The position numbers and the translations under genes were made by a program. From the IMG/VR virus record IMGVR_UViG_3300031772_000117, positions 1 to 37,600 of that record: DNA of 37,600 bases, one strand, 5' to 3'. Positions 9,393 to 10,161 of the stretch are shown one piece after another (position 1 is the first letter of the stretch; each line of letters starts with the position of its first letter). The stretch is from a virus. The notes under the pieces are model-generated. The model saw nothing but the letters and a program-made list of their open reading frames with translations, ran no database searches and was not told the origin of the DNA.

Positions 9393-9442
9393 GTAAATTT
9401 CAATACACATGTCCAAGATGTTGTGCATTGGTACGATTATGA
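9389..9442 (+). CDS. 17-codon peptide with CPRCC knuckle, coupled to the methyltransferase
   Basis: MSKFQYTCPRCCALVRL. The ATG overlaps the upstream stop (ATGA) and is preceded by a strong AGGGGG site. Its own TGA (9440-9442) overlaps the methyltransferase ATG (9439), again as ATGA. It may be a leader that carries ribosomes onto the methyltransferase, or the N-terminal remnant of a zinc-ribbon gene. Confidence 0.5.
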   Translation: MSKFQYTCPRCCALVRL

Positions 9443-10161
9443 AGCATGCGAGCCTGTTCTCAGGAATCGGCGGCTTTGATCTGGCCGCTGAGTGGCTCGG
9501 TTGGGAAAATATATTTCAAGTAGAAAAAGACGCCTTCTGTCAGGGGGTGCTTAAAAAGAATTTTAAAAACACAAGGATCTATGATGACATTACCACTTTC
9601 GACGGAACCCCCTATAGAGGAACGATCGATGTTCTCTCAGGCGGATTTCCCTGCCAACCTTTCAGCATCGCAGGGCATATGCGTGGCCATGAAGACGAGC
9701 GTGCCCTCTGGCCTGAAATGCTTAGAGTCATTCAAGAGATCCGGCCTCGCTGGGTCGTTGGTGAGAATGTTGCTAACTTCGCCAAAATGGGGCTCGACAG
9801 TGCGTTTGCTGACTTGGAAAACCTCGGCTACTCCGTCGGGGCGGCAATACTTCCAGCTTGCGCCGTCAACGCTCCACACCAAAGAAACCGGATTTGGATT
9901 ATTGCCCACGCCAGCGGCACGGGACTACAAGGGGTCTCGGAGTCTGGAAGCCCTAGAACGATCGGGACGGGGACAGCGCAACAATCTACCCGACTTCTTC
10001 GCACAGACTGGAAAAAGTTCCCGACTCAATCACCGATTTGTACTGGAGATGATGGGCTTTCCCCCAAACTGGTGCGATTAGCAACTAAAGCGGCCGGAAA
10101 TGCGGCAGTACCGCAATTAATTTACGAAATTTTTAAAATGTTACAGGAGATTGAAAAATGA
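9439..10161 (+). CDS. DNA cytosine-C5 methyltransferase
   Basis: 240 residues from the ATG at 9439, giving the typical N-terminus MKHASLFSGIGGFDLAAEW; the frame is open to 9409 but the extra residues are not family-like. It transfers methyl from SAM to cytosine C5. Motif I is FSGIGGFD (7-14). Motif IV is GGFPCQPFS (68-76, catalytic C72). Motif VI is ENV (109-111), motif VIII is QRNRIW (148-153) and motif X is GNAAVPQ (220-226). The target-recognition region between VIII and X is short. The gene probably protects phage DNA from host restriction. A 500-base second frame overlaps it (see 9581-10081). Confidence 0.9.
   Translation: MKHASLFSGIGGFDLAAEWLGWENIFQVEKDAFCQGVLKKNFKNTRIYDDITTFDGTPYRGTIDVLSGGFPCQPFSIAGHMRGHEDERALWPEMLRVIQEIRPRWVVGENVANFAKMGLDSAFADLENLGYSVGAAILPACAVNAPHQRNRIWIIAHASGTGLQGVSESGSPRTIGTGTAQQSTRLLRTDWKKFPTQSPICTGDDGLSPKLVRLATKAAGNAAVPQLIYEIFKMLQEIEK
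9581..10081 (+). CDS. overlapping ORF in an alternative frame inside the methyltransferase
   Basis: Open for 166 codons in the +1 frame relative to the methyltransferase. It starts with two ATGs (9581, 9584); AAGGA at 9573-9577 is 6 bases before the second. The translation is not random-looking. It contains VRLLTWKTSATPSGRQYF, GLLPTPAARDYKG and, at the end, RLNHRFVLEMMGFPPNWCD. From memory, I associate these blocks with regions encoded in or beside phage cytosine methyltransferase genes. The same DNA encodes FPTQSPICTGDDGLS in the methyltransferase frame. It could be a true overprinted gene or the relic of a frame-shifted target-recognition region. Confidence 0.5.
   Translation: MMTLPLSTEPPIEERSMFSQADFPANLSASQGICVAMKTSVPSGLKCLESFKRSGLAGSLVRMLLTSPKWGSTVRLLTWKTSATPSGRQYFQLAPSTLHTKETGFGLLPTPAARDYKGSRSLEALERSGRGQRNNLPDFFAQTGKSSRLNHRFVLEMMGFPPNWCD

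Follow-up and report, generated by a model that had tools for sequence, protein, structure and literature searches.

In C5-cytosine methyltransferases such as M.HhaI, M.HaeIII and E. coli Dcm, a single chain carries both motif IX and the recognition domain, unlike the arrangement described here. Enzymes divided between two polypeptides have also been described. For M.EcoHK31I, Lee et al. (1995) are reported to have found the beta polypeptide (176 aa) in a different frame within the alpha gene, with activity depending on both polypeptides. According to PMC3404938, the large subunit of M.EcoHK31I (YGGCCR) contains motifs I–VIII and X and is also where the target domain is placed, and the small subunit contains motif IX. 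M.AquI (CYCGRG) is given there as having motifs I–VIII on one polypeptide and a C-terminal part with motifs IX and X on another.

The DNA analysed is a 37,600-nt stretch of the viral record IMGVR_UViG_3300031772_000117, referred to below as the window. It contains two overlapping frames, alpha (frame 1) and beta (frame 2, offset by +1), and we consider it very likely that they specify a two-polypeptide C5-methyltransferase of the M.EcoHK31I kind, with alpha as the catalytic polypeptide and beta contributing motif IX and, probably, target recognition. By the published description of M.EcoHK31I, the motifs are distributed in the same way (I–VIII and X in alpha, IX in beta). The small subunit again lies in another frame within the large-subunit gene, as computed for the window and as reported for M.EcoHK31I. 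However, the target domain of M.EcoHK31I is assigned to the large subunit, whereas in the window the LPTP/TL-like modules that would take this part are in beta; residues 161–204 of alpha are unfolded in the model and the TL-like module aligns from beta. M.EcoHK31I is also part of a restriction-modification system, whereas the window pair is an orphan in a phage; methyltransferases of this orphan sort usually serve phages as protection against host restriction. M.AquI is like the window in having the catalytic motifs I–VIII on one polypeptide, but its small subunit holds both IX and X. Because motif X is retained in alpha, the window pair is not of the M.AquI kind, and that arrangement better fits the relatives of the Abdiel type (gp78/gp77, locus L295 and others) considered below. 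As the two-polypeptide C5-methyltransferase is already known as a kind, the interest here lies in the breadth of the arrangement and in a poly(G) tract found in the overlap.

The catalytic frame and motif IX

All features are on the + strand. The alpha ORF (9409–10161) opens with ATG 9409 and encodes 250 aa, and the start shared with homologues is ATG 9439, giving a polypeptide of 240 aa (9439–10161). In a Pfam search, alpha matched PF00145 (E 2e-43) over profile positions 1–168 of 324 only, and among the PHROG profiles it matched phrog_363. By sequence it aligned with the M.HhaI family over motifs I–VIII (3.5e-38), and the best fold match of the alpha model was M.HhaI (E 2.9e-15). Alpha has motif I (LFSGIGG), IV (PCQPFS with the catalytic cysteine, 9649–9666), VI (ENV, 9763–9771), VIII (QRNRIW, 9880–9897) and X (GNAAVPQ, 10096–10116), and across 59 relatives the key residues are invariant or nearly so; P71, C72 and S76 in IV, E109, N110 and V111 in VI, R149 and R151 in VIII, and G220, N221 and A222 in X are invariant. 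Motif X aligned weakly to M.HhaI 298–318. The catalytic set of PF00145, namely I, IV (PCQ), VI (ENV), VIII and X, is thus present in one chain. Motif IX was sought in alpha and is absent, alpha aligns with single-chain enzymes by hhalign over motifs I–VIII only, and the PF00145 combination of motif IX and a target recognition domain in the same chain was not found in it. Residues 161–204, between motifs VIII and X, have pLDDT <50 in the model. The preliminary description, made from the sequence alone, had placed all core motifs up to GNAAVPQ in frame 1, but motif IX is missing there and sits in frame 2.

Beta (9581–10081) is a +1 frame of 166 aa, or 165 aa from ATG 9584, containing LLTWKTSATPSGR, GLLPTPAARDYKG and LNHRFVLEMMGFPPNW, and the two ORFs reported earlier were confirmed. 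A possible Shine–Dalgarno sequence, AAGGA (9573–9577), lies 3 nt from ATG 9581 and 6 nt from ATG 9584, and the nearest +1-frame stop upstream is at 9521. Searched alone, beta matched phrog_1008 (E 5.1e-26), a phage family named 'DNA methyltransferase', and relatives were found on 365 viral contigs. A profile of beta was compared by hhalign with single-chain enzymes (two phage loci and E. coli Dcm), giving a short match with E 5.1e-5 and a probability of 67%. The match sets the C-terminus of beta, RLNHRFVLEMMGFPPNW (10022–10072), on RRLTPxECERLQGFPDDW, which is motif IX of the single-chain enzymes; LNHRFVLEMMGFPPNW aligns with this motif, and L149 and M158 are invariant. On these alignments, beta carries a homologue of motif IX.

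The same comparison sets LPTPAARD, from the beta module LPTPAARDYKG (9902–9934), on the PTL segment of the single-chain enzymes, and the module is repeated in relatives. The target domains of single-chain enzymes are described (PMC2413257) as having a conserved 'TL' motif 10–50 residues before motif IX. LPTP is at the corresponding place in beta, and we infer that it corresponds to the TL region found in target recognition domains. Several LPTP modules are present in longer betas, for example those of HB10c2 and Abdiel. Multispecific phage methyltransferases carry several target domains, which the betas with several LPTP modules recall. From these alignments, beta probably provides target recognition, and the earlier suggestion that frame 2 supplies another recognition domain is probably right in part, as beta has the LPTP modules and motif IX at the position that the target recognition domain occupies in single-chain relatives. 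A further beta block, LTWKTSATPSGRQYFQL (9809–9859), lies over alpha motifs VI–VIII and is conserved among beta relatives. It is predicted with low confidence to be a two-strand hairpin (strands 75–83 and 89–96 in a poor-quality model).

Beta could instead be a separate overprinted protein with another role, such as an inhibitor, a partner or an anti-restriction factor, that merely lies inside a methyltransferase gene. Such a role would suit the searches in which no Pfam or NCBIfam model reached the cut-off (a weak FR47 match, E 0.083, was below it) and only chance matches to PDB sequences were obtained, and also the poor structure model of beta alone (mean pLDDT 50.7). However, alpha is consistently without motif IX where beta has it, beta homologues continue in frame into motif X, and one single-chain relative, L293, has LPTP modules and an IX-like block in the alpha frame itself. 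We therefore regard a separate role as very unlikely.

In the two-polypeptide enzyme that we prefer, alpha and beta would be translated from one mRNA, beta presumably from ATG 9581 or 9584 behind AAGGA. Alpha would fold as the large catalytic domain (motifs I–VIII and X), with AdoMet binding and the catalytic Cys, and beta would complete the small domain with motif IX and probably read the target through its LPTP/TL-like part. The two would assemble into one enzyme, neither being active alone, and this enzyme would methylate cytosines in phage DNA, presumably guarding the DNA from host restriction.

Beta is a real overprinted gene

Of the 365 viral contigs with beta relatives, 80 were kept as a beta-chosen sample, and both frames were open at the +1 offset in 81 of 81 loci (these 80 and the window). 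As this sample was chosen by beta, a second was chosen using the first 54 residues of alpha, which are nearly all outside beta. Beta was detected in all 80 loci of this sample and was intact in the +1 frame in 76; in the remaining four (L110, L113, L118 and L122) one indel moves both frames together. Two more sets were recovered with the alpha N-termini of distant clades, represented by Salmonella phage SW3 and mycobacteriophage Zerg. Among intact distinct loci, motif IX was found in the +1 frame in 66 of 66 for the window clade, and in 66 of 67 and 63 of 66 for the other two. It was in the +2 frame of no locus in the three alpha-chosen sets and on the antisense strand in 2 of 199 intact loci. 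Matches to the motif IX regular expression were found in frame 0 in 5, 2 and 3 loci of the three sets, including L436 and L439, which are canonical single-chain enzymes with IX in frame 0 and none in +1.

These counts exclude 15 rows (3, 9 and 2 duplicates by set, with identical alpha ORFs), alphas running off the contig (1, 3 and 1), and alphas without motif IV or X in frame (10, 1 and 11). Motif IX was found in some frame in six of the ten excluded from the first set for this last reason, and in L103, L142 and L145 it was not in +1, owing to an indel or a changed layout. The regular expression was widened after the variants LMALP and LMGIP had been missed, and the narrower version had given 45 of 71 and 67 of 78 distinct loci.

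Constraint was assessed in 65 disjoint pairs drawn from the 184 distinct alpha genes of 216 intact loci, scoring four-fold degenerate codons of alpha whose amino acid is unchanged. Change at these sites was 334/816 (0.41) before beta, 654/2961 (0.22) in the core of the overlap, 208/1668 (0.125) in its variable part and 140/332 (0.42) after beta, and it was lower inside beta than outside in 59 of 63 pairs. Along the gene, the drop in alpha-synonymous change starts at alpha codons 49–56, where beta starts, and ends at the beta stop; the lowest value (0.04) is over motif IX, and just past the beta stop it is 0.51. Changes synonymous in alpha created a beta stop in 5 of 862 cases, compared with 1099 of 17240 expected placements. 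When the alpha protein was kept and its synonymous codons were permuted, the 166-codon +1 frame stayed open in 3 of 2000 trials; with codons drawn from neighbouring genes it stayed open in none of 2000. Against an HMM built without the window, beta scored 195 bits, and 500 alpha-synonymous shuffles had a mean of 53 (sd 11) and a maximum of 89. In the converse shuffle, with the beta protein kept, the score of the alpha overlap, 203 for the real sequence, never exceeded 84.

Alpha and beta are both conserved as coding sequence. The claim that both look like real protein is borne out by the conserved beta frame, the conserved +1 offset, the synonymous-site constraint and the shuffles. Among the options that the preliminary description had listed, an overprinted gene is upheld, as the beta frame and its offset are kept and the alpha-synonymous constraint starts and stops with beta; a relic is contradicted by the same conservation and constraint. 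That description had proposed collecting homologues and testing synonymous sites in both frames, and when this was done frame 2 was not interrupted by stops in most homologues and there was constraint beyond that imposed by frame 1.

That beta owes its similarity to the conservation of alpha or to composition, or that beta is a decaying relic, is in our judgement hardly credible. Long open frames are expected anyway in GC-rich relatives, and shuffles preserving alpha still score about 50 bits with the beta HMM, a share of the similarity that is due to alpha by itself. However, none of the shuffles approached the score of the real sequence, the depression at synonymous sites is bounded by beta, beta stops are far rarer than expected, and motif IX is all but confined to one of the alternative frames. 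In the core of the overlap alpha is more conserved than beta in 63 of 65 pairs, and in the variable part beta is better conserved in 34 and alpha in 25, with 6 ties. The possibility of a reciprocal overprint, in which the variable region of alpha was newly made over beta, is only suggestive.

The preliminary description gave beta its own ATG with a good Shine–Dalgarno sequence, and in the window ATG 9581 and AAGGA are indeed present, but relatives do not regularly have such a sequence ahead of beta. A match of at least 4 bases was found in 95 of 185 distinct loci for the best candidate start and at 195 of 1004 internal start codons, a comparison that proves little because the best of several candidate starts was taken. 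In 213 of 216 loci there is a +1-frame stop upstream of beta inside alpha, which fits an independent internal start.

Other frame arrangements and the poly(G) tract

In Mycobacterium phage Abdiel (cluster A4), the annotated genes gp78 and gp77 overlap by only 23 nt. Gp78 has motifs I–VIII and ends after VIII, and gp77 has three LPTP-type modules, followed by MMGWEEGW (IX) and then, in frame, GNGVVVQQ (motif X). Gp77 belongs to the same family as beta (phrog_1008, 4.4e-79) and like beta has LPTP modules and motif IX, but in Abdiel motif X follows IX in gp77. An IX-like block and then GNGV in one ORF, separate from motif IV, were found in 14 of the 18 viral loci recovered with gp77. A profile of this type was aligned by hhalign to the same region (IX–X) of the same single-chain set, with a probability of 4%. 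L293 is a single chain, in which motifs I–VIII share their frame with LPTP modules and an IX-like block. In L300 (758–2479 and 1365–2306), IX and X are in frame with I–VIII and an open +1 frame has two LPTP modules only. From the layouts of the Abdiel type, L293 and L300, it follows that the LPTP modules and motif IX vary in frame and keep their place relative to VIII and X. We also note L456, where, from position 2001, frame 0 ends in the motif X-like GDAVTV and the +1 frame has a canonical-looking motif IX (LTPTECERLQGLPMGW); this may be an indel, or the same split may have arisen there separately.

A run of 9–12 G (15 in one case, at a contig end) is found in one lineage at alpha codon 117, within the dual-coding region. 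A pattern scan for poly(G) recovered 60 contigs (L462–L521), of which 49 match alpha at the codon 117 site. Both frames are intact in 35 of these, broken in 12 (including L462) and one-sided in two, so that 12 of the 47 that could be evaluated are out of frame. Broken and intact relatives mostly differ by one G, and in the broken form alpha motifs I–VI share a frame with the LTWK–LPTP–IX part of beta. The length differences look like phase variation and may be that, but assembled reads with homopolymer errors would give the same pattern. Other long G runs occur in the same overlapping genes in L118 (10 G at codon 83), L146 (9 G at codon 60) and L225 (8 G at codon 59), and L118 is broken at its run.

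The tract bears on another option of the preliminary description, a programmed frameshift, in which the second half of beta would be made only as the tail of an alpha–beta fusion, through a +1 shift or indels in a G run, and would serve as an alternative recognition end. A one-base change in the G run does join alpha I–VI to LTWK–LPTP–IX in frame in L110, L113 and L122, and the tract is at this very site in most of the contigs found by pattern. However, at this site the window has no more than GGGG, long G runs are missing from most relatives (the longest run is ≤5 in 180 of 216 intact loci), and the fusion would be without motifs VIII and X. Above all, constraint in the beta frame sets in near alpha codon 49, at the start of beta and far upstream of the codon 117 site, not at one downstream slip site. 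For this reason a programmed frameshift is rejected as the main source of beta and is given little credence; translation of beta as a subunit from its own start is preferred.

Breadth, annotation and significance

Motif IX was in the +1 frame in all 17 overlapping phage records that were fetched, the hosts of which belong to the Bacillota, Actinomycetota, Bacteroidota, Pseudomonadota and Cyanobacteria. As these records were picked by similarity to alpha or beta, they indicate breadth, not frequency. Beta is annotated in four of the 17 (Lily, Shelly, PhiXhv-5 and a Porphyromonas phage). The Paenibacillus phages Lily (gp63) and Shelly (gp56) have the same +1 nested beta, annotated as an 'internal gene' of the cytosine methyltransferase and as a hypothetical protein, and the betas of Paenibacillus phages are 35–47% identical to that of the window among the matches listed. 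In the Porphyromonas phage record (L280, 1673–2287), only beta is annotated, as a hypothetical protein, and alpha, the methyltransferase, is unannotated.

Bacterial contigs picked by beta had the +1 offset in 21 of 21 cases. Among 10 flanking ORFs from 8 of these 21 loci, no restriction enzyme was found beside the bacterial copies; a DnaB helicase and a DNA polymerase III beta subunit were. An alpha/beta pair is also present on a contig labelled as a Heimdallarchaeota MAG (L266, 1–381), which may be viral or a contaminant. No description of this overlap in phages was found in the literature, in a search with most subscription journals outside its reach, and one may therefore have been published.

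A wider proposal is put forward tentatively, at less than even confidence. In several large clades of C5-methyltransferases, from phages of at least five host phyla, the default would be a split enzyme with the recognition half (TL-like LPTP modules and motif IX) overprinted on the catalytic gene, and the tract of 9–12 G in one lineage would be a phase-variation switch in which slippage by one base inactivates the two subunits, or fuses them, at a stroke.

If true, few cases of two long conserved proteins encoded by one stretch of DNA would be as old or as widespread, and relatives that are single-chain, separately split and overprinted are at hand for studying how overprinting arises. The poly(G) tract, if variable in real populations, would be a methylation switch in which one base acts on two proteins. 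Should alpha depend on beta, cloning only the annotated frame would give an inactive protein for many phage methyltransferases that are annotated as single genes, and predictions of specificity made from alpha only would leave out the polypeptide by which the target is probably read.
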